DNA of 64,000 nt, taken from positions 124,001 through 188,000 of the forward strand of contig JAUIAB010000002.1 in the NCBI GenBank assembly GCA_030425505.1. The letters are read 5' to 3'. Origin of the DNA: Bacteroidia bacterium (GTDB lineage Bacteria > Bacteroidota > Bacteroidia > Cytophagales > Flammeovirgaceae). The notes under the pieces were generated by a model. The model was not told where the DNA came from, made no database searches, and saw nothing but the letters and a program-made list of their open reading frames with translations. Shown piece after piece: positions 1-62,072 of the stretch. Positions within the stretch are counted from its first letter, which is position 1, and each line of letters opens with the position of its first letter. The translations under genes were made by a program, and so were the position numbers.

Positions 1-520
1 AAAAAATCTAGTTGATGAAGCTGGGCAAAGCATAGTACATGCAGATCAAGTTGGTATTTTGGGTTTTTCTGATGGTGCAACAGCAGTGGCTGCCACATTA
101 TTTGATGCTAATTTTACTCCATCAGTTTGGGAGTGGACACAAAAGTACGATGGAGAGGAGTTTACTAAACCAGATGGAGTTGAAGCTCCCTATGTAAGGG
201 AAGCAGGAGAAAGTTTTGCATGTGGAATCTTTTACTATGGAGGATCTGTAGGGAATTCATATTGGGGAGGGAATCCTTGTAGTAGTCCAGATTATATTTA
301 CTCTAATTACGCACCACTACTTTATCATTTGCCAGAAAATGGCTATTTGACGGAAAATACTTTGTGTTCTTATGATAAATTAAAAAATAGAGGGGCTCAA
401 GTAGAAAAATATATTTATGAAAATGCCACCCATGGATTTGATGGAGATAAAGGTGATGAAAAAGAACATAGCGACCTAGCCAGAGCTCGTACCATTGAAT
501 GGCTTAGGTCTCACTTCTAG
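1..520 (+). CDS. Alpha/beta hydrolase (dienelactone-hydrolase-like), C-terminal part
   Basis: The reading frame is open from the window edge, so the gene begins upstream and only about 172 C-terminal residues are visible. The visible part has a nucleophile elbow, GFSDG, with serine as the likely nucleophile, and a late histidine in ATHGFDGDKG placed as in the catalytic His of dienelactone-hydrolase-type alpha/beta hydrolases. It ends with a helix typical of this fold. No Shine-Dalgarno or start can be judged because the 5' end is missing. The family hydrolyses esters or lactones, often periplasmic or cytosolic; the substrate cannot be inferred. The fold is fairly certain, the precise subfamily is not. 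Confidence 0.7.
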   Translation, partial: KNLVDEAGQSIVHADQVGILGFSDGATAVAATLFDANFTPSVWEWTQKYDGEEFTKPDGVEAPYVREAGESFACGIFYYGGSVGNSYWGGNPCSSPDYIYSNYAPLLYHLPENGYLTENTLCSYDKLKNRGAQVEKYIYENATHGFDGDKGDEKEHSDLARARTIEWLRSHF

Positions 521-44699: not shown

Positions 44700-47090
44700 A
44701 TGAGTGCGAATCAAAATACATCCAGTTTGTCTAATTCAAATTCTAGCGATGATTTTTTTGCCAATGTAGAATTTGATCCAGCAAAGTTTTTCTTTTTATT
44801 AAAAAGAAGCCTTTGGTGGATTTTGATTATACTCTTCGCTGGTTTAGTAGGGTCTTATTTGTATTTAAGATATACGGAGAAAATATTTGAAGCATCTGCT
44901 GTAATTAAGCTAGAAATTAAGAATGATGCTGATCTTTTAGATATTTCTGTTAACCCTCTTGGAGATGGAAAGGATAAAAACAAGCTGGCTGGAGAAATAG
45001 AATTAATAAAATCCGAAATAATATATGACCGATTAATTGACTCTTTGGGTTTAGGTATAAGCTATTATGCAAAAGGAAACATATTAAATTCTGAGCGTTT
45101 TGAATCTTCTTCATTTAAAGTGATAGTTAAAAATGCTTCAAATCAAGAAGATCGACCTATTTATATTGTTTTTAAAGATGAAAACTCATTTTTAATAAGT
45201 AAAAATGAAAGTTTTGAATCTGCTACTCAGCAGAGAGTTAATCAATGGTTTGTATTTGGTAGAGATTCCCTAAAGGTAATAAAAAGTAGTTTATTTGATG
45301 AGAGTAATATTAATGAGAACTACTACTTTGTGTTTAATAGTGATAGAAGTTTATACTCCTATTTCAACCGAAACTTAGGAGTTGCTATTGAAAGTTTTGC
45401 TGCTAATACTTTAAAGTTAATATTTAAGGATCCCAATAGATCAAAAGCAATCAAGATTATTGAAAATGTAATTGAAATTTATAAATCACAGTCTATAGAA
45501 AGCAAAAACCAAGTTTTTGAGCAATCCTTACAATACCTAGAAGATCAATTAGTTATCACAAAGGATACACTATCTTTTTATGAAGACTTAATAGCCAAAC
45601 TTACAGAAGTAAACAAAATTCCAGAGGTTCAAGAAGTGGGAGAGGCGATTAGTACTATCCGCTCTTTAGAAGAACAAATGACAAATTTGAAATTCAAGAT
45701 AGATCAGTATGAAAAGCTAGAGAACTACATATACAATGACTCTTCGTCTATATATTTATACGGTCTCTCATCTGTTATTGGGAACTCCCAATTAAGCACA
45801 CTAATTACTCGACTAGTAGAGATAGAAAGTAACTTTAAAAGAGCATCAAGTGCCTATAAAAACTCAACAGAAGCTTTAAAAAATAAGCTGGCAAGTTTAA
45901 CAATTATAAAAGAAGAATTATTTGAGTTAATTAAGTTTAATAAATCCTTTTTAGAGAAAAACTTAAAAAGAGTAAAAAGAAGCATTCGAGATCTTGAAAC
46001 TGAGTTTTATGAATTAGCAAAAGGAAACCCCGAGCTGAGAAAAATCAATAAAAATTATAGCATATATGAGAAAGTATCTGATCTAATTCTCAATAAGAAA
46101 ATAGAAATAAGCATTGCTAAAGCAGGAACAGTTCCAAATTTTAAAGTAATATCTCAAGCAAACGCTTCATCTAATCCTATATCACCAATTCCTTTGATAA
46201 TTTATGGTATTGGCTTTGGAGTTGGATTATTTATTTCATCTATACTTATTATCATAAAATACCTTCTCCAAAACAGGATAAATAGCATGAGCGAGCTAGA
46301 AAAAAGGCTCAAAATTCCTGTAATTGGCGTTGTTCCTCTTTATAGAAAAAGAAAGCTGGAACACTCAGAACTTATAATTGATCAAAACCCTAAATCATCT
46401 ATCAGCGAAGCATTTCGATCCATAAGAACAAGCTTGGATTTTGTATCAGAAGGAAAAAAGCAAAAATTGATATCTGTAACTTCTACAGTGAGTGGAGAGG
46501 GAAAAACGTTTGTTGCTCTTAATTTAGCGGGGGTAATTGCACTCTCTGGATTAAAAGTTGTTCTAATAGACCTCGACTTAAGAAAACCTAAGGTTCATTT
46601 AGGAATGGGTGTAATGAATCAATTTGGAATCACTTCTTACCTTGTCAAAAAAGCTGGCTTAGAAGAGATTATCAATAAATCTAAATTGGATTCATTAGAT
46701 TTTATAACTGCAGGGCCAACACCGCCTAACCCATCAGAGCTTCTCATGTCGGAGTCATTCAAAGATTTGATTTCAAAATTGAAAGAAACATATGATGTCA
46801 TTTTGATGGATTCACCACCAGTAGGCTTGGTTACAGATGGTATTCAAGCAATGAAAATGGCTGATATCCCTGTTTTTGTATTTAGGACAGATTATTCCAA
46901 GTTAGCATATACAATAGCGGCTAATAAACTGGTATCTGATGGAAATTTTAAACATGCAGTTGCTATTTTAAATGGTGTAGGAGCTAAAAACTCTTATGGC
47001 TATGGCTATGGATATACATATGGCGGAAGTTATGGATATGGTTACGGGACAAAACATGGAGGATATGCCGGAGGCTATTATGAAGAATAA
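44700..47090 (+). CDS. Wzc-like chain-length regulator and BY-kinase
   Basis: A 796-residue inner-membrane protein controlling exopolysaccharide length and export. An N-terminal Wzz domain has transmembrane helices at about 38-55 and 500-522 with a coiled-coil periplasmic part. The cytosolic tyrosine autokinase has Walker A SGEGKT (598-603), Walker A' VVLIDLDLRKP and Walker B VILMDSPP. The C-terminal tail is a cluster of Tyr-Gly repeats (YGYGYGYTYGGSYGYGYG), the usual autophosphorylation tail. Its stop overlaps the next gene by 1 bp. Confidence 0.93.
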   Translation: MSANQNTSSLSNSNSSDDFFANVEFDPAKFFFLLKRSLWWILIILFAGLVGSYLYLRYTEKIFEASAVIKLEIKNDADLLDISVNPLGDGKDKNKLAGEIELIKSEIIYDRLIDSLGLGISYYAKGNILNSERFESSSFKVIVKNASNQEDRPIYIVFKDENSFLISKNESFESATQQRVNQWFVFGRDSLKVIKSSLFDESNINENYYFVFNSDRSLYSYFNRNLGVAIESFAANTLKLIFKDPNRSKAIKIIENVIEIYKSQSIESKNQVFEQSLQYLEDQLVITKDTLSFYEDLIAKLTEVNKIPEVQEVGEAISTIRSLEEQMTNLKFKIDQYEKLENYIYNDSSSIYLYGLSSVIGNSQLSTLITRLVEIESNFKRASSAYKNSTEALKNKLASLTIIKEELFELIKFNKSFLEKNLKRVKRSIRDLETEFYELAKGNPELRKINKNYSIYEKVSDLILNKKIEISIAKAGTVPNFKVISQANASSNPISPIPLIIYGIGFGVGLFISSILIIIKYLLQNRINSMSELEKRLKIPVIGVVPLYRKRKLEHSELIIDQNPKSSISEAFRSIRTSLDFVSEGKKQKLISVTSTVSGEGKTFVALNLAGVIALSGLKVVLIDLDLRKPKVHLGMGVMNQFGITSYLVKKAGLEEIINKSKLDSLDFITAGPTPPNPSELLMSESFKDLISKLKETYDVILMDSPPVGLVTDGIQAMKMADIPVFVFRTDYSKLAYTIAANKLVSDGNFKHAVAILNGVGAKNSYGYGYGYTYGGSYGYGYGTKHGGYAGGYYEE

Positions 47091-47812
47091 TGATTTCACT
47101 TTTTAGAAAAAAAATACAGCCAAAAGAAATCAAAATAGATATTCACTCTCACCTTTTGCCGGGGTTAGATGATGGTGTTAGCTCTTTAGAGGAATCAGAA
47201 AGTATTTTAAAAAGATTTATTGATTTAGGTTACGAAAAAGTAATTACCACACCTCATATAATGAGTGACTTCTATCAAAACACTCCTGAAAAAATCAATG
47301 AATCTTATCAAAAACTAATCAAGCATCTCAAGGAAAAAGAAATAGCTATAAAAGTAGAGTTTGCTGCAGAATACTATTTAGATGATTATTTTCTGAAACT
47401 ATTAATGGGCAAAGAAGATCTATTAACTTTTGGAGATAAATATCTATTATTTGAAATGCCTATGATAAGCCAAAGTTTAGTACTGGAAGAAACCATTTTC
47501 AACTTACAGTCAATGGGGTATAAGCCAGTGCTTGCTCATCCAGAACGATATCCGTATTACTTTGGCGATTATAAAAAATTAAAATCTATTTATGATAGGG
47601 GAGTCCTTTTTCAAGTAAATATTAACTCCATTGGAGAATATTACTCAAAACCTTCTAAAATGATAGTTCAAAAACTAGCAAAAGACAAAATGATTGACTT
47701 TATTGGAAGTGACTGCCATGGAAGAAAGCATATTGAATTTACTCAAAAAGTAAGAAGTTCAAGACTTTATGCTGAAATATCTAATCTCGAATTGAAAAAC
47801 AATACTCTTTAG
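47090..47812 (+). CDS. CpsB/YwqE-like tyrosine phosphatase (PHP family)
   Basis: A 240-residue metal-dependent PHP phosphatase that removes phosphate from the Wzc-like kinase tail. Metal ligands are His19 and His21 in DIHSHLLPGLDDG, and later HPERY and GSDCHG. It begins at the last base of the kinase gene's stop, so the pair is translationally coupled. Gram-negative systems often use a Wzb-type low-molecular-weight phosphatase; the PHP type is usual in Firmicutes and Bacteroidota. Confidence 0.92.
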   Translation: MISLFRKKIQPKEIKIDIHSHLLPGLDDGVSSLEESESILKRFIDLGYEKVITTPHIMSDFYQNTPEKINESYQKLIKHLKEKEIAIKVEFAAEYYLDDYFLKLLMGKEDLLTFGDKYLLFEMPMISQSLVLEETIFNLQSMGYKPVLAHPERYPYYFGDYKKLKSIYDRGVLFQVNINSIGEYYSKPSKMIVQKLAKDKMIDFIGSDCHGRKHIEFTQKVRSSRLYAEISNLELKNNTL

Positions 47813-52146: not shown

Positions 52147-52154
52147 TAACTTTG
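52147..52154 (+). promoter_or_regulatory. Candidate -7 box of the first GldM-like gene
   Basis: TAACTTTG is a perfect TAnnTTTG. A TTTG at 52128-52131 is the nearest -33 candidate, with 15 bp spacing instead of 19. The box overlaps a possible TTG start (52152), so translation begins downstream. Confidence 0.45.
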
Positions 52155-52184: not shown

Positions 52185-53129
52185 ATGAAAAAAATTAGAA
52201 TACAACTTCTCATCATTGCTATAATCTTGGCAGGAACAATGATTTACCGATGGACTAAGCCGAGACAATTAAATAAACTAGAGCATGAAACAGTAGTAGA
52301 AGCTGCAAAAACACTATCTCATTTTGCAGACTTAAAAAAGCAGAATAACAATTTCCATATTCGATCCATAGCAGAAATTGCTGATAGAAGAAAGGAAAAC
52401 GTTTTTCTCTCGCAAGTAAAAGAAAATGTAGTAAAAATTGATTCTCTTACAATTAATATTTTACAAAGTACAAATAGCCTTTGGGATAAGGCAGTCAAAT
52501 CAGTAGATGGGTACACAAAATCGATGCGTATCACAAAGGTTGACAAAAAAGTAGAAGCCTCAAAAGAAGAAATCAAAGATTGGATTCATCACATTGATAA
52601 ATACTTAGCCCAAATAGCTGAAATTTCAAACATGGATTCCTCCTCTATTTATTTTGATACTAAAGGTAATGCAGTTAGCAAAGCGGAGTTTGCTAACCTT
52701 TACCTCATGAATAAGCCATTATCTATTTTACTATCTAATCTCAGTAGAATAAAATCAGATATTATAGAAGCAGAAGAAAAAGCAATTTTAAGACTTGGAA
52801 AAAATGTAAGCTACTTCCCGATGGAGTTTGAGGAGCTAGTACCAGTAGTAATTCCAGAGAAAAGAGAAATAAAGGAAGGCGAAGAGTACAAAGCTACAGT
52901 TGCTGTTTACCCTAAACTCTCAACGCAATACCCTATGATAGCATTTAAAGATAGTAAAAGTATTTCTGTAGAAGATGGTTATGCTGAAGTAAAAATAAAG
53001 GCAGAAAAGCCTTACAAGAAAAAAGATAAACAAATCTATGAAAAAGAATGGAATGCTAGCCTTACCATCAACGGTCCATATGGAAATCAGACATTCACAA
53101 AAAAAGATAAATTTTTAATAGAAAAATAA
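52185..53129 (+). CDS. Short GldM-like inner-membrane protein 1
   Basis: About 314 residues. The Met at 52185 gives an N-terminal signal-anchor helix (IRIQLLIIAIILAGTMIY); earlier in-frame starts overlap the promoter. A helical periplasmic region (about 25-210) ends in MNKPLSILLSNLSRIKSDIIEAE, a pattern seen at the end of the first GldM domain. It is followed by a beta domain (about 220-314) with PEKREIKEGEEYKATVAVYP, as in the second GldM domain, after which the protein stops. Full GldM has about 510 residues and two further domains. GldM is the rotor shaft of the T9SS motor. The assignment rests on recalled family patterns. A second such gene follows. Confidence 0.6.
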   Translation: MKKIRIQLLIIAIILAGTMIYRWTKPRQLNKLEHETVVEAAKTLSHFADLKKQNNNFHIRSIAEIADRRKENVFLSQVKENVVKIDSLTINILQSTNSLWDKAVKSVDGYTKSMRITKVDKKVEASKEEIKDWIHHIDKYLAQIAEISNMDSSSIYFDTKGNAVSKAEFANLYLMNKPLSILLSNLSRIKSDIIEAEEKAILRLGKNVSYFPMEFEELVPVVIPEKREIKEGEEYKATVAVYPKLSTQYPMIAFKDSKSISVEDGYAEVKIKAEKPYKKKDKQIYEKEWNASLTINGPYGNQTFTKKDKFLIEK

Positions 53130-53133
53130 ACTT

Positions 53134-53227
53134 GAAACAGACCGTGTCTGATTTAAAATTGAGGCATATACGAAGCAATGATTAAGATGCTTACCAAATA
53201 AACAGACAGGTTATAAATTTTAAATAG
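53134..53227 (+). repeat. Repeat family B copy before the second GldM-like gene
   Basis: This 94-bp stretch, starting GAAACAGACCgtGTCTG, matches 28798-28893 (reverse strand) end to end. It fills all but 4 bp of the gap between the two GldM-like genes and stops at the ATG of the second. The CAGAC-N3-GTCTG inverted repeat and the ATTTAAAATTGAG block are conserved. Confidence 0.8.
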
Positions 53228-54094
53228 ATGAAAATCCTTCAATACATCCTAAATATTCTTGCAGTTACCCTTTTAGTATCTATTGTATACTATTATGGGT
53301 TTCAAAAAGCGTATATCACTGAAAGTGACTATGAGTCAATACAAAAAACATCTGATGAGATCAAAGAACTGGTTCATAGCTCTAGGTTAAATCTTTTGAA
53401 AAAATATGATTTTGCTCAAAGGCAATCAAAAGCTTGTGGTACAGATAAAGCAAAAGCAATTTACTCAAGTCTTAAAGCTGCTAGAGTACTATCTGTAAAT
53501 GCATTGGTGAAAAATAAAACATTAGTTGAGGGGGGTAACAAACTTGAAGAGTCAACACTAAAAAGTCTTTCGGAAACTATGAAAGACTATACTGCACAAC
53601 TAAATAAGTTGGGCTTGACAGCAAGTTTTGAGCCTCCTGTGCCTATTTATTTAAAAGAGGCAAACAGAGCAGTTGAGTTAGAAACATACCAAAATACTTC
53701 CCCTGAAATGTGGTCATTGGTTTCTCAACTAAACAATGCTACCATATACGAGATGGAAAACTTATGCTTTGCAAATGTGATGGATGTACTTTCCTGTATG
53801 CGAATAGGTAATGGAATAAAAGTAATCTCTGTTCCTGACCAGGAAGTAGTAGCTAAAGATGAGGTGTTCAATACAAAACTATTTTTATCTAACAGTCAAT
53901 ATTATATTCCTCAAATAGATGTAAGATTTATGGAACAGGCAGCTTCTATTGAATATACAGACAATAGCGTAGCTAAAATTGTCATCAAACCCGAGGCAGG
54001 TGTTGGAGAAAAAGAATGGAAAGCAAAAATTACTATTATGGGTATTGATGACTACAAAACATTTGATATCTCAGAAAAATTTACAGTAAATTAA
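53228..54094 (+). CDS. Short GldM-like inner-membrane protein 2
   Basis: A 288-residue protein built like its upstream neighbour: an N-terminal anchor helix (IAVTLLVSIVYYYGF region), a helical region (about 28-190; includes MWSLVSQLNNATIYEMENL), and one beta domain (about 195-288) with SVPDQEVVAKDEVFNTKLFL that ends ISEKFTVN. Sequence identity between the two is low, but the order and length of parts are the same. It has an odd set of cysteines (Cys in KACGTDK, NLCFANV, LSCMRIG). The peptidyl-prolyl isomerase gene starts 4 bp later. Confidence 0.5.
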   Translation: MKILQYILNILAVTLLVSIVYYYGFQKAYITESDYESIQKTSDEIKELVHSSRLNLLKKYDFAQRQSKACGTDKAKAIYSSLKAARVLSVNALVKNKTLVEGGNKLEESTLKSLSETMKDYTAQLNKLGLTASFEPPVPIYLKEANRAVELETYQNTSPEMWSLVSQLNNATIYEMENLCFANVMDVLSCMRIGNGIKVISVPDQEVVAKDEVFNTKLFLSNSQYYIPQIDVRFMEQAASIEYTDNSVAKIVIKPEAGVGEKEWKAKITIMGIDDYKTFDISEKFTVN

Positions 54095-56358: not shown

Positions 56359-56423
56359 AACTTTTATTTTATCCTCATTTAATATTCCTTTGGTATATTA
56401 CTTAAGTTAAAAATCACTTGTTA

Positions 56424-59400
56424 ATGATGAAACCTTTTTATAATTTTTTCTTTTTACTAGTCTTGGTACTTTCATTTACCAACATTTCAAAAAGCCAAGT
56501 TTCAAATGAAGGTCTAACCATAACCAGTGCAGCAAACTTAGATGGTGTAGTTATAAGTCGGGTAGCAATTGATGGGGATTTTGAAGGAAATATTTATGGT
56601 ATTACCTACTACTATGAAGTTACTCCTCCAGCTCAAAATGAAAACTTAGATGCTCAATTAGATTTTGATTATAATGAAGTTGATGTTGTGGGAGTTTCTG
56701 AGGCTAGCTTGAGAGTTTTCAAATCTTTTGATGGTATTACATGGTACTACATTGGGGGAAGTGTTGATGAAGACAATAATTCAGTAACAGTATCTAATAT
56801 TGATGACCTAAGCTACTTTGCAATAGGCGTCCGAAAACCTTCTCCAGGTGATGTAGTAATCAATGAGATTGTAACAGACCCTCAGCAAAACTGGAATCAG
56901 GTAGGAGCAAGGTTTACCGACGATAGACCTGGAGGAAGTTCTGGGCAAGATGATGAGTGGGTAGAGTTGTATATTAAGAGAAATGGTTTAGACCTTACAG
57001 GTTGGACTATTGAATTAAATGATGGAACGGATGTAATAGGAAGTTTAGTTGAAAATTCTGCTTTTGAAGAGTCCATTTATTTAAGTGGCTTGGGAGGTAG
57101 CTTTATTAGTTCAAGGGCTGGTGATTACCTGGTATTAGGTAATGTAGATTCAGACGATTTGATGAATAATGATATCGATCTGATTTTGAGAGATCCTGAA
57201 GGAAATATAATAGATAGAGTAGAAGTTGGTGCAGCTGATAATGACGGCATTGCTGGAAATGAAGCCCCTGATGGAAATGCAAATAGTATTTTGAATGAAT
57301 CCTTGATTAGATATCCTAATGGGGTAGACTCAGATAACTCTGCTAGTGACTTTATTCATAGCTCTTCTAGTTTAGGGAAATCTAACTCAAAAGTTGGATC
57401 TGTAAAGATTAATGAAATTGTTACAGATCCTCAGCAAGATTGGAGTACAAATAACTTCAATGGTATACCTTCAAATCAAGTAGTAAGTAGTGTTGATGAA
57501 TGGGTAGAGCTATATATAGTGGATGCAGATATCAACTTACATAATTGGATCTTAGAATTTAAGAATGATGGTGGAGAATTGGTTTCAGGAATTTTGACAG
57601 AAGGGGGAGCATTTGAAGAGTCTATCTATTTTACTAAAAATAATGGAAATGTATTTTTTGCAAATCAGGGAGATTACTTAGTTCTTGGTAATCCAACTGG
57701 AGCAAATGCACTAAACAACAACATTCTAGTTACTCTAAAAGATCCTAACGGAAATATAATAGACCAGGTAGAAATTGGTAGTGATCTACAAGAAGATGGA
57801 GAAGGTGATGAAGCGCCAGGAGGAAACGCAACTAATTTATCTGATGAGTCTATTTCCAGAATAAACGATGGTGTTGACTCTGATGATGATAGTAATGACT
57901 TCGTAAAAACAATAGCTACTTTGGGAAAAGCAAATATCTACTCTGAAAGTACTCAGACTCTAATAAGTCAAGCTACTTTTGTTAACGGCAATACGCTATG
58001 GCTCAAAGCAGATGACCTATTGGGTTATTTAAATAATAATGATGCTACTTCGTATTGGTCTAGCGCAAACTCTGCGTCTAATCAAGTTATATTTAACTCT
58101 CAAGGAAATCCGGAATTTCTTGAAAATACAATAAATGGATTTCCAACTATAAGTTTTGATGGTGTTGATGATGTATTTACTGCTGACGGGCTAAATCTTC
58201 AGAATATTATTGACGCTGGCGCCTATAGTATTGTTATTGTATCAAAAGTAAACTCTTCAGACAACAATGCTAATGTAACTGAAAGTGCAGCAATGCTTAG
58301 CAGTAGTGAGTCAGGGTTTAGTATAAATACTTTTGATAACGCTGGACAAGCTGAAATGCACTTATTTAATAATGATGATAATGCTACTGCAAATAGTGTT
58401 GACGGCGACTTTAATGTATGGACATTTTCTCATACAACAGCTCCAAATCAACTAAACCTGTATAAAGATGGGGTTTTAATAAACTCTGCTGTGACAGAAA
58501 ATACGCTAGCTAACACATTGGGAGGTGCTTTCCAAATAGGCAGAAGTAGCGCAAATAGATATTTTAATGGAGAAATTGCAGAAATTATCGCTTTCCGTAA
58601 TGCCCTTAATCCCACCGAGCGAACAATAGTTGAAAACTACTTAGAAGCCAAATATGGAGGCGTAGATAATAATGTATTTGATATCCAAAATGACAAATAC
58701 GCCCAACTAGGAGATCGAGATTACATTTATGGCTTATCAGGTATTGGTAAAGAAGTGGCTAGTGAAGTTACAGAGAGTTCTTCAAGCGGAGGGATGAGTA
58801 TTGATGACCTTGGCTTTCTGCAAGATGCTGGAGACTATATTCTTTTCGCACATAATAATCAAATAAATGAAGAGGTGTATGATCGTTTACCACAAGGAGT
58901 ACTTTCTTTGGCTACAGCTAGATGGAATAAAACATGGTACATAGATAAAACAGATATAAATGTTGATGAAGAAGATAATGGTGACAACATTAAAATCGCT
59001 TTTAACTTCAAAGAAAGTGGTTTAAACACTTTTGGGAATAAAGACCATACATATTATTTACTATTCAGTGCTAATGGGGTTGATGATTTTGAAGTAGTAG
59101 AAGTAAAAGGATCTTACCTAACATCTGAAAATGGCACAGTAGAAGAAGCAGTTTTTGATATAGATTCAGATAAAATATTGGATGGATATTATACGCTAGG
59201 AAGGTCGGATAATGGTAGTGGAAATGCTATAGCATTTGATGGAATAGATGACTATATGTCTGCAACTATATCTAATGTAAATAGCATAGATGCATATACC
59301 ATTTCTCTATGGTTTTCGGTGACAGATAAAGAAGCAGGTGGAGATTCGCCAGTTTTAATAACTTTCGGTAATGTCAGACCTGGAATACTATTGAAAGCCT

Positions 59401-62072
59401 CAGGAGGAAATGATGTAGTATTTAAATCTGCTAATTTTGCCAACCCTGAAGTATTATTCTCTTATGACAAAATAGAAGAGGGACAATGGTATCATTTAGC
59501 ATTGACGAATGAAGGTGGGGCTCCAGGGACAATAAAATGTTACTTAAATGGTATCCTAGAATCAACGTTTGAAAATGGAAGAAACCTTGATCCCCAACTT
59601 CTCTCAAATACTAGATTTATTGGATCTAAGCCGACATCAAATAACCAGTGGGAAGGAGCTTTAGATGAGATTTCTATTTGGAATAGAGATTTATCCGAAT
59701 TAGAAATAAGGGATATTATGTCAAAAAAACTGTCAGGTGAAGAAAACAACCTGGTAGCATATTATCAGTTTAATGGTTGGAATGAGCCTAATCATAGTTC
59801 TGACCCGTTTAAATCTAAAAATAATAATTCTAACCCAGTCCAATTTTTTGATGGATTCGATGATGCTAACCCTGGAGATCCTAGTAATCAGAATGATGTA
59901 CCTCCTTTATATGTTCCTTCTGGAGCACTAATAACAGGAGAAAGTGTTACAGCTTTTACAAATGCTTTAGAGCTTAATGGTGTTGATCAATATGCTGATA
60001 TCTCTGACCTAGGAATTATACTTAATGCAGATCGATTATTTACAATTGAAGGATGGATTAAAAACGATGCCTTACAAAATGCTGATGGAACCATATTTTC
60101 TTCTCAGGGAATAAATATTGGTTATTCTAATGCAGATGACTTTCTACATTTTACAGTTGCAGATGATGGAGCCAATACTGTCGACTTAGCAAGTAAAACA
60201 GCTTTAAAAGCAGATTTAGACAGATGGAACTATTTTGCTGCAGTTATTGATGGAGCAATAATGCAAATTTATATCAATGGAGCACTAGAAGGAGAGAGAA
60301 TAACTGCTCCTGGTCAAGTTTCGATAAGTGGAAATCAGTTTTTTGGAAAAAAACAAGATAATTCAGGTTTCTTTAGAGGAAAGATAGATGAGTTTAGAAT
60401 TTGGACGACTGTAAGAACGCATGACCAGCTACAAAAAAATGTATTTGGTAGCTTAGAACCTGATGCAGCTGGTTTATTTGCATACTATAATTTTGATCTG
60501 ACTAGCGGAGAAGAATTGCCTGATGCCACCAATAACCTTAATATTGGAACAGTTGAAGTAGCTGACGGAGATCAGCCGATGTGGGTAATAGCTAATGAAA
60601 GAATCCCTAAACGTCCTGTAATAATAAAAGGAGCTTTCTCTGAAGGTTCAACATGGTTTGGTCAAACAGTTCCAGTAAACTCTAGTGATCTAGAGCTTAC
60701 TCAGGATATAACCTTAGATCAGGATTATTCTACAAATATTTTAGCTATTAGAGAGGGAGTTACGCTTACGGTTAATGATGGGGTTACATTAACCATAGAA
60801 AACAACTTAATCAATGAAGGCACAATTACTGGAGAAGGAAGCGTAGTGGTAGAAGGTCAGTACATTTATGGAGGGACTTATGATAATTTAAATCTCAATA
60901 CAGCAGATATTGAAATACAAAATGATATTAATATTACAAATGATTTACGTTTATTGCAGGGAGATGTTCTTTTAGGAGAAAGCGATGTAACAGTTTTTAG
61001 TCGTATAAGACGATCTTCCAGCGATATGAAGATAATAACCAACTCTCTTAGCACTTCTGAGAAAGGCTTTCTAAACAGATACGTTCCTGATTTTGAGAGT
61101 CCTATCTTATTTCCTTTAGGAAACTCTTCAAGTAGTTATACACCTTTAACTATAATTAACTCTGCTCAAGAAGGCTTCATCAAAGCAAAAATTGTTGATG
61201 GCTTGGTTCTTGGAAATAACGTTACTCCTGCTGAGGAGGCATATGAGTCCGTTACTAAAACTTGGACAATAGAATCAAACGACGATGTAGATGTAGCTAT
61301 CACATTCCACTGGAGTAATTTGGAAGAGTTTAACGATCCAGGCAACCCTGGAAGGAACTTTGATATAGGGGATGTATTTCTTACCAAAAGAAGTGATATA
61401 GAAGGTTATCGTGAGTTTAGAGGAGATGAAATTGCTGTAGCTTCCAATGGAAATACACGAACGTTAACTGTTGAGGGAATTACATCTTTTTCTGATTGGG
61501 GAATAGGTAGTGGCAATTCTGTTCTTCCTGTGTCGTGGGTTAGTTTTTACCCAGTGAAAACCAAAGAGTTTGTAGTGCTGCACTGGGAGACAGCCACAGA
61601 AGTAAACAATAAAGGATTTTCTTTAGAAAAATCAATGGATGGGAAAAACTATGAGACAATTAGATGGGTAGATGGAGTAGGAGAGAGTACAACTCTTCAA
61701 AAATATACTGCTACAGACTCTTCCCCTTATACTGGACTAAATTATTACCGCTTAAAACAGATAGATCATGATGGCAAGTTTGAATATTCTAAAGTAGTCT
61801 CTATTTATTTCGATCACTCTATCTCAGAGCATAACTTTCAGATATACCCTAACCCTACGAGTTCTCACCTAAATATTATAAGTACAAAATCGTTAAATGG
61901 TGATTTTACAATATCTATTCATGGATTATCTGGGAAAGAGATCTTAAAAATCAACGATCTTAACTTATCGTCAAAAAATCAAATTGACATATCTAATCTA
62001 AATAACGGAATATATCTTTTGAGACTTTATCAAGAAAATGAAGTGGAAACATTTCGCATACTTAAAAACTAA
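56424..62072 (+). CDS. Giant multidomain T9SS-secreted protein with LamG-like domains
   Basis: About 1882 residues from the ATG at 56424, with a signal peptide (MMKPFYNFFFLLVLVLSF). In order: an N-terminal beta region (about 30-140); two tandem lamin-tail-like modules (INEIVTDPQQ at about 143 and 326); a LamG/concanavalin-like module (524-750); a module opening DYIYGLSGIGKE (765-925); two more LamG modules (935-1150, 1180-1400); a beta region (1449-1690); the C-terminal VLPVSWVSFYPVK module (1699-1800); and a type A T9SS sorting domain from about 1805 (FQIYPNPTSSHLN) that ends YLLRLYQENEVETFRILKN. It is likely exported and attached to the surface; adhesin or glycan-binding use is plausible, no catalytic domain is seen. 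It overlaps the kinase gene by 4 bp at the 3' end. Confidence 0.92.
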   Translation: MMKPFYNFFFLLVLVLSFTNISKSQVSNEGLTITSAANLDGVVISRVAIDGDFEGNIYGITYYYEVTPPAQNENLDAQLDFDYNEVDVVGVSEASLRVFKSFDGITWYYIGGSVDEDNNSVTVSNIDDLSYFAIGVRKPSPGDVVINEIVTDPQQNWNQVGARFTDDRPGGSSGQDDEWVELYIKRNGLDLTGWTIELNDGTDVIGSLVENSAFEESIYLSGLGGSFISSRAGDYLVLGNVDSDDLMNNDIDLILRDPEGNIIDRVEVGAADNDGIAGNEAPDGNANSILNESLIRYPNGVDSDNSASDFIHSSSSLGKSNSKVGSVKINEIVTDPQQDWSTNNFNGIPSNQVVSSVDEWVELYIVDADINLHNWILEFKNDGGELVSGILTEGGAFEESIYFTKNNGNVFFANQGDYLVLGNPTGANALNNNILVTLKDPNGNIIDQVEIGSDLQEDGEGDEAPGGNATNLSDESISRINDGVDSDDDSNDFVKTIATLGKANIYSESTQTLISQATFVNGNTLWLKADDLLGYLNNNDATSYWSSANSASNQVIFNSQGNPEFLENTINGFPTISFDGVDDVFTADGLNLQNIIDAGAYSIVIVSKVNSSDNNANVTESAAMLSSSESGFSINTFDNAGQAEMHLFNNDDNATANSVDGDFNVWTFSHTTAPNQLNLYKDGVLINSAVTENTLANTLGGAFQIGRSSANRYFNGEIAEIIAFRNALNPTERTIVENYLEAKYGGVDNNVFDIQNDKYAQLGDRDYIYGLSGIGKEVASEVTESSSSGGMSIDDLGFLQDAGDYILFAHNNQINEEVYDRLPQGVLSLATARWNKTWYIDKTDINVDEEDNGDNIKIAFNFKESGLNTFGNKDHTYYLLFSANGVDDFEVVEVKGSYLTSENGTVEEAVFDIDSDKILDGYYTLGRSDNGSGNAIAFDGIDDYMSATISNVNSIDAYTISLWFSVTDKEAGGDSPVLITFGNVRPGILLKASGGNDVVFKSANFANPEVLFSYDKIEEGQWYHLALTNEGGAPGTIKCYLNGILESTFENGRNLDPQLLSNTRFIGSKPTSNNQWEGALDEISIWNRDLSELEIRDIMSKKLSGEENNLVAYYQFNGWNEPNHSSDPFKSKNNNSNPVQFFDGFDDANPGDPSNQNDVPPLYVPSGALITGESVTAFTNALELNGVDQYADISDLGIILNADRLFTIEGWIKNDALQNADGTIFSSQGINIGYSNADDFLHFTVADDGANTVDLASKTALKADLDRWNYFAAVIDGAIMQIYINGALEGERITAPGQVSISGNQFFGKKQDNSGFFRGKIDEFRIWTTVRTHDQLQKNVFGSLEPDAAGLFAYYNFDLTSGEELPDATNNLNIGTVEVADGDQPMWVIANERIPKRPVIIKGAFSEGSTWFGQTVPVNSSDLELTQDITLDQDYSTNILAIREGVTLTVNDGVTLTIENNLINEGTITGEGSVVVEGQYIYGGTYDNLNLNTADIEIQNDINITNDLRLLQGDVLLGESDVTVFSRIRRSSSDMKIITNSLSTSEKGFLNRYVPDFESPILFPLGNSSSSYTPLTIINSAQEGFIKAKIVDGLVLGNNVTPAEEAYESVTKTWTIESNDDVDVAITFHWSNLEEFNDPGNPGRNFDIGDVFLTKRSDIEGYREFRGDEIAVASNGNTRTLTVEGITSFSDWGIGSGNSVLPVSWVSFYPVKTKEFVVLHWETATEVNNKGFSLEKSMDGKNYETIRWVDGVGESTTLQKYTATDSSPYTGLNYYRLKQIDHDGKFEYSKVVSIYFDHSISEHNFQIYPNPTSSHLNIISTKSLNGDFTISIHGLSGKEILKINDLNLSSKNQIDISNLNNGIYLLRLYQENEVETFRILKN

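Follow-up and report, generated by a model that had tools for sequence, protein, structure and literature searches.

The locus described here lies within a 64,000-nucleotide stretch of DNA that was analyzed as a whole and is referred to as the window. An earlier note on this DNA had placed two tandem genes at positions 52185 to 54094, and these coordinates are right, with both genes being complete open reading frames on the + strand. The first gene, P0001 (52185..53129), begins with an ATG at 52185, has its stop at 53129 and encodes a protein of 314 aa that its ORF, profile matches, fold and tree position identify as a short GldM-family protein composed of an anchor, a D1 domain and a D2 domain. 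Its single anchor helix (residues 2-24; 52188..52256), which is an AlphaFold2 helix that a motif count found to be without the GldM motif RxxM[IV]xxMY, is followed by a helical D1-like region (residues 31-206; 52275..52802) and by a beta D2-like domain (residues 214-314; 52824..53126). After 98 bases the second gene, P0002 (53228..54094), runs on the same strand from an ATG at 53228 to a stop at 54094 and encodes a more diverged, probable short GldM-family protein of 288 aa, as judged from its ORF, HHalign comparisons with decoys and the tree. It has an anchor helix (residues 2-24; 53231..53299) according to hydropathy and a low-confidence model, a putative D1-like helical region (residues 30-183; 53315..53776) and a putative D2-like beta domain (residues 200-287; 53825..54088). 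The Bacteroidota -7 promoter element has the consensus TAnnTTTG, and upstream of P0001 on the + strand the sequence TAACTTTG (52147..52154), on direct reading, resembles it and is a candidate for such an element. A scan for sigma-70-type promoters gave no excess of sites (13 versus 12.9 expected).

Downstream of P0002 there follow, in order, a cyclophilin-type peptidyl-prolyl isomerase (PPIase; PF00160; 54098..54979, + strand) with a start that by eye looks like that of a lipoprotein, a protein of 303 aa that matches no Pfam entry and an 1884-aa protein with a T9SS sorting tail. The PPIase begins 3 bases after P0002 and is thus possibly co-transcribed with it, and the earlier note had taken this neighborhood as a clue. 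A PPIase match is present in all 17 other genomes of the family and is near full-length in 16 of them, and no short GldM-like gene was seen near the PPIase in those 16 within about 1.5 kb on each side (roughly 3.8 kb read, with ORFs taken by eye). Additionally, a profile check of 194 frames, taken from the PPIase stretch of the window and from those 16 genomes, returned no frames other than the window genes with both profiles. Two TetR-like helical frames near the PPIase scored E 0.0007 and 0.015 with a six-row profile and were rejected, since a 49-row profile gave 0.77 for one and nothing for the other. Consequently, the PPIase is no guide to function. The isomerase gene itself has two separate Pfam stretches and so probably carries an insertion, and its long form is matched in the 16 other genomes besides shorter matches. 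Elsewhere in the window, the 1884-aa protein (56418-62072) contains lamin-tail and laminin-G-like domains in addition to its sorting tail, and positions 44700-47812 encode a Wzz/AAA_31 protein and then a CpsB/CapC protein, a pair of the kind that controls capsule or exopolysaccharide.

Profile searches place P0001 within the GldM superfamily while keeping it well apart from standard GldM. It matches TIGR03517 with an E-value of 2.6e-11 and 43 bits, residues 51-305 aligning on positions 50-311 of a profile of 524, which is far below the equivalog cut-off of 180 bits. Its D2 matches GldM_2nd (PF21601) at residues 214-305 with 26.1 bits, over the cut-off of 24.4, and in the same Pfam scan there was no match to GldM_3rd or GldM_4th at E 1. 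GldM and PorM are defined by four domains, D1 to D4, and P0001 has a match to GldM_2nd only and stops there; the full GldM of the same genome, which served as control, matches all four GldM domains. In the domain search proposed in the earlier note, P0001 matches GldM_2nd over its cut-off and P0002 remains below it. In alignments with full GldM the identity of P0001 is 18-23%, and an HHalign comparison with the N-terminal halves of 40 full GldM proteins gave a probability of 98.7% over residues 43-312. A scan of genome contigs with P0001 gave 53 pattern stretches with no relative among them.

The predicted structure of P0001 agrees with these assignments. AlphaFold2 was supplied with seven rows, including four short relatives and the N-terminal parts of two full-length GldM proteins, and gave an anchor helix at residues 2-24, five helices within 31-206 and strands within 220-313. 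The model is of middling confidence (mean pLDDT 69.7, with D2 blocks at about 48-70) and is not independent of GldM because two of the seven input rows come from full-length GldMs. When this model was used in a VIA-align fold search the top eight rows were all GldM or PorM, with Z scores of 13.8-17.2 against 8.5 for the first unrelated row, and residues 1..208 aligned on 2..220 of 7sau with the anchor included, so that it falls on the transmembrane part of GldM. The helical region was aligned to GldM D1 in 7sau, 7sax, 7saz, 6ys8 and 6ey4. Foldseek likewise placed GldM or PorM in the first six rows, with a phage tail protein and STAT3 at ranks 7 and 8 (E 6-8e-4). Ig-like and complement or macroglobulin domains (Z 7-8.5) were rejected as relatives, as they mostly matched the D2 part and were taken to reflect a common sandwich. 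The D1 and D2 folds of the GldM superfamily are present in P0001 in that order after one anchor, and since the published limits of the GldM domains are 32-232 for D1, 233-320 for D2, 321-405 for D3 and 406-513 for D4 (PMC5790014), P0001 ends near the border of D2 and D3. These results establish P0001 as a member of a short branch of the GldM/PorM superfamily that has one inner-membrane anchor, D1 and D2, and nothing further.

The relationship of P0002 to GldM is more remote. HMMER gave E 0.04 against PF21601 (under the cut-off), E 0.0089 and 14.8 bits against TIGR03517 (the 180-bit cut-off not being reached) and E 0.054 among the 194 frames with a 49-row profile of full and short GldMs; no profile that left P0002 out gave a significant HMMER match, and its high score with a profile containing it follows by construction. 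Against the 49-row profile, which combines the 40 N-terminal halves of full GldM with nine short relatives and leaves out P0001, HHalign gave a probability of 88.2% and a score of 47.3 for residues 30-287 on 29-328, while the best of 260 decoys scored 23.5. Against full GldM alone, with residues 200-287 lying on GldM D2, the score was 31.9 and the probability 22.6%, a weak result that became strong with the combined profile, the profile having been changed between the two runs. None of the 260 true decoys scored as high in that run (best 27.1), the nominal one of 261 that equaled or exceeded P0002 being P0001 read from an earlier start. As decoys, 200 other proteins were used together with 60 shuffled versions of P0002, and the architecture of P0002 is rare among them; members of the second-gene family of Bernardetia described below, which do have a similar architecture, singly reached at most 23.9 in the run with full GldM alone. 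An AlphaFold2 model from the single sequence shows the order anchor, long helices (within the D1-like region) and C-terminal strands (within 214-286) with a pLDDT of only 36. The structural comparison with GldM D1 and D2 proposed in the earlier note favors GldM and PorM for P0001, whose model ranks them first. P0001 is above chance by every test and P0002 by profile-profile comparison only. That P0002 is a second, fast-evolving GldM-family member in tandem with P0001 is supported, not proven, by these comparisons, and the earlier description of two tandem half-length proteins of GldM fold without D3 and D4 holds for P0001 by all tests and for P0002 by HHalign against decoys.

In the genome (2.95 Mb in 41 contigs) a single full GldM carrying the complete set of four domains is encoded on contig C19 next to GldL, GldK and GldN, and the latter three each exceed their curated cut-offs. 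The window pair is thus not encoded with gldL, gldK and gldN. The earlier claim that the pair occurs without GldL or GldN is correct for this locus and incorrect for the genome, and the separate full-length gldKLMN locus for which that note suggested looking does exist. GldL is found over the cut-off once, in the gldKLMN locus; two further GldL matches (E 0.18 and 0.44) were under the cut-off and were taken as noise. A 50-row tree separates the ten short proteins, P0001 included, from the 40 full GldMs by a branch with support of 100/100. AU tests, in which groups were named after inspection of the tree, rejected a grouping of P0001 with the GldM of its own genome (p-AU 0.0047) and with the GldMs of its family (0.0016). 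A further tree included P0002 and dropped eight near-duplicate full GldMs, which left 32 of the 40; the 11 short rows again formed one group (100/99), and a placement of P0002 beside the genome's own GldM was rejected (p 0.0059). Branches in these trees are very long (2.4 and 3.3 for P0001 and 5.2 for P0002), and the tool warns that joins of this kind can be false.

Relatives of the short form occur in another family of the same order. Of 11 genomes in this family, 9 encode a solo short GldM-like protein that has the same architecture and measures 330-358 aa; we call the family Bernardetiaceae because four of the proteins are identical to proteins of Bernardetiaceae bacterium, Bernardetia sp., Flexibacter sp. 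and uncultured Cytophagales bacterium. All nine match TIGR03517 and GldM_2nd, and two match GldM_1st too. At the Bernardetia-type loci that were read, purC flanks the solo gene on one side and a tyrosine recombinase gene on the other, neighbors that point to no envelope function. Seven short proteins of one genus gave dN/dS values of about 0.12-0.37 in 21 of 21 pairs, and the short form in this genus is under purifying selection. To call the window proteins truncated, as was done earlier, is therefore misleading, as the short form constitutes a distinct family. These data also bear on whether the two genes are decaying or frameshifted copies of gldM. Such an origin would account for the presence of half of GldM and no more, and it is scarcely conceivable in view of the open frames, the separate tree branch with its AU rejections, the similar length of the proteins in Bernardetiaceae and the purifying selection seen there; the earlier note had itself raised frameshifted copies as the result that would overturn it.

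The occurrence of the short form was surveyed more widely. In the window's own family (18 genomes), a profile containing P0001 and P0002 recovered short members from the window genome alone, and elsewhere in the family it recovered full-length GldMs with open frames of 534-567 aa in 16 of the 17 other genomes; two further matches, both weak, fall within longer frames (876 and 882 aa), and one of these belongs to the window genome. P0002 alone, run against 58 genomes, listed three, namely its own and two at E about 0.005, one of these inside an 1127-aa frame and one with four stops. The window pair itself was therefore found in no other genome among the 58 searched with P0002 and the 18 searched with the joint profile, and as these searches gave no close relative of P0002, conservation of the pair is not seen in its own lineage. 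Across the order, a nine-row solo-short profile found short proteins with E-values no weaker than 5.9e-121 in at least 10 of 390 genomes among the matches listed, nine of those ten having supplied the profile rows and at most five candidates being scored per genome. The next rows among the matches listed were at E 3.7e-38 or weaker and were nearly all full length, the exceptions being seven open frames of 312-403 aa, two with stops. In a sample of 375 genomes from the phylum, 12 match at E 1e-15, with a short protein in the window's own genome only. Viral contigs contained no relative of P0002, and a GldM alignment run against them gave 41 stretches with no relative among them.

These surveys also turned up several features of other GldM proteins. 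Genomes G062 and G113 of genus g43 have seven and six GldM_2nd matches, most others having one or two among the matches listed. The full GldMs of Roseivirga spongicola (locus L113, 4125-5936) and a Cytophagia bacterium (locus L114, 4107-5903) carry an insertion of ~70 residues near the D1/D2 border that is Ser/Thr/Pro-rich by eye, and in genome G003, a member of the window's family, two frames for full-length GldM lie about 3 kb or less apart (contig C9, about 3445536-3448903).

The anchor region distinguishes short from full proteins. Hennell James 2021 reportedly describes the GldM residues that face GldL. The motif RxxM[IV]xxMY occurs at the N-terminus of all 40 full GldMs and in none of the nine solo shorts, the 18 first genes and 23 second genes of the tandem families described below, P0001 or P0002, an absence that does not prove loss of GldL binding. 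Protonation of GldL E49 controls contact between the transmembrane helices of GldL and GldM (PMC8986121). As there is neither a GldM anchor motif nor a second GldL, the window proteins are probably not turned by the proton motor. The suggestion in the earlier note of alternative motor shafts, in which the pair would replace GldM in the GldL ring and drive another target, draws on the GldM-like succession of one anchor and then D1, and on the alignment of the modeled anchor with the GldM transmembrane part of 7sau. It is very improbable, with the motif missing from the nine solo shorts and both window proteins and with the only GldL over the cut-off sitting in the gldKLMN locus.

A different role in type 9 secretion or gliding would be that of a modulator, whereby the short proteins pair with full GldM via D1/D2 and form one-armed mixed dimers that tune or block the motor. 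The short proteins have the same dimerizing domains as GldM, and 9 of the 10 genomes that encode a short protein also show full GldM (the remaining assembly has a completeness of 84%), so that a T9SS role would also fit the distribution. Against this, without a shared anchor motif a mixed dimer would fit the GldL ring poorly, the identity of P0001 to full GldM is low, and the pair is unlinked to gldKLMN in the window genome. We regard modulation as possible, if on the unlikely side.

A tandem arrangement that resembles the window pair is present in Bernardetia. A first-gene family (about 280-320 aa with one anchor) occurs in 5 of 390 genomes of the order, all of one genus, with 2-6 match rows per genome, some of which are two pieces of one gene. 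Read by eye, 17 of the 19 loci have one or two second-type genes (two in six loci) after the first gene and on its strand, and one of the two loci without a second gene ends soon after the first gene. Several of these pairs and triples, which encode anchored proteins of periplasmic type, have overlapping gene ends, and no common neighboring gene was noticed at the tandem loci. The first-gene family matched the solo short GldMs over its whole length by HHalign with 96.9%, and in a second run with 96.1% and a score of 70.2, compared with at most 20.6 in 25 column-shuffle controls. Its HHalign matches were weak with full GldM alone (7.0%) and with P0001 alone (3.8%), while the second genes gave a weak match on D2 (27%) and P0002 gave 5% versus the second genes. 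Pfam showed no GldM domain at E 0.1 in either family (14 first-gene and 17 second-gene members), the alignments holding 14 of 18 first-gene members, 17 of 23 second-gene members and, in alignment A7, 6 of 9. On this sequence evidence the first-gene family is likely to be remotely related to the short GldMs, and a relationship of the second-gene family to GldM may be taken as a lead. The pairing across Cytophagales that the earlier note proposed to look for is consequently seen in part: the window pair has no counterpart in the genomes searched, and what does exist is single short proteins in Bernardetiaceae and tandem pairs with a probably remotely related first gene in one genus.

These tandem loci bear on the idea of a separate envelope machine built on the GldM fold, unrelated to T9SS and with partners of its own, of which the Bernardetia tandem pairs would be the expanded form. 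Whole-length resemblance of the first genes to the solo shorts, their 2-6 match rows in each of five genomes and the second-type genes that follow in 17 of 19 loci speak for such a machine. The weak scores of the first-gene family against full GldM and P0001, those of the second genes against GldM and of P0002 against the second genes, and the fact that no common neighbor was noticed at the loci all speak against it, and we hold this machine to be rather improbable. A related proposal, that the GldM fold split from the proton motor into its own family of tandem-encoded half-struts that form a separate envelope structure, became multiplied in Bernardetia and works independently of T9SS, is also rather doubtful.

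The explanation that we prefer, to which we give roughly even credence, is that P0001 and P0002 are passive paired half-struts, uncoupled from the motor, which serve to hold or to regulate a component of the envelope. According to PMC5790014, GldM packs via helix alpha1 of D1 and has swapped strands in D2, and because GldM dimerizes in this manner P0001 and P0002 may dimerize as well, most likely with each other; the oligomerizing PorM construct in that paper is D2-D3, not D2 alone. According to PMC9389320, the four domains of GldM make up a shaft about 18 nm long through which force may pass from the GldL motor to the outer ring. A pair of the short proteins would stand as a strut reaching roughly half as far. 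As reported in PMC5790014, D4 alone suffices for PorN binding while PorK needs D2-D3 and D4, and in PMC12635249 a 2025 AF3 model, whose confidence metrics are weak, has PorN contacted mainly by PorM D4. The known D4 contact to the GldN ring is thus impossible for the window proteins, which have no D3-D4. Since the short proteins keep the pairing parts, lose the ring-reaching parts and appear to be uncoupled from the motor, we infer passive half-struts, which would hold or regulate a component of the envelope in the inner periplasm; the chief rivals of this reading are modulation of GldM through mixed dimers and a separate machine. A conserved half-length form of GldM without the anchor motif and the ring-contacting domains raises the question of what D1-D2 alone does, and short GldMs are natural tools with which dimerization, coupling to the motor and contact with the ring could be told apart in gliding and type 9 secretion.

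For completeness, we compare the window proteins with known systems. The axle proteins ExbD, TolR and MotB carry an acidic residue in the anchor helix, and there is no D or E within the most hydrophobic 19 residues of P0001 or P0002, nor did Pfam and TIGR profile scans match either protein to the ExbD/TolR/MotB families. According to PMC9389320, axles of this kind sit as a dimer inside the 5:2 motors MotAB and ExbBD. With GldM and PorM (TIGR03517; 6ey4, 7cmg, 6ys8, 7sau) P0001 shares, and P0002 probably shares, the order of N-terminal anchor, helical D1 and beta D2, and the window proteins differ in being without D3, D4 and RxxM[IV]xxMY, in not lying beside gldL, gldK or gldN and in scoring far under the cut-off. 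In a UniProt survey the lengths of GldM form a single narrow peak (PMC9389320), and literature searches for a short or paralogous GldM listed no description of one. The Bernardetia tandem families resemble the window in having two or three anchored genes in a row, the first being a probable remote relative over its whole length, and differ from it in being multi-copy. The solo short GldMs of Bernardetiaceae differ from the window pair in being encoded by a single gene, with purC and tyrosine recombinase neighbors in the Bernardetia-type loci read, and in having a tail after D2, and they have the same anchor, D1 and D2 only and belong to the same tree branch as P0001.
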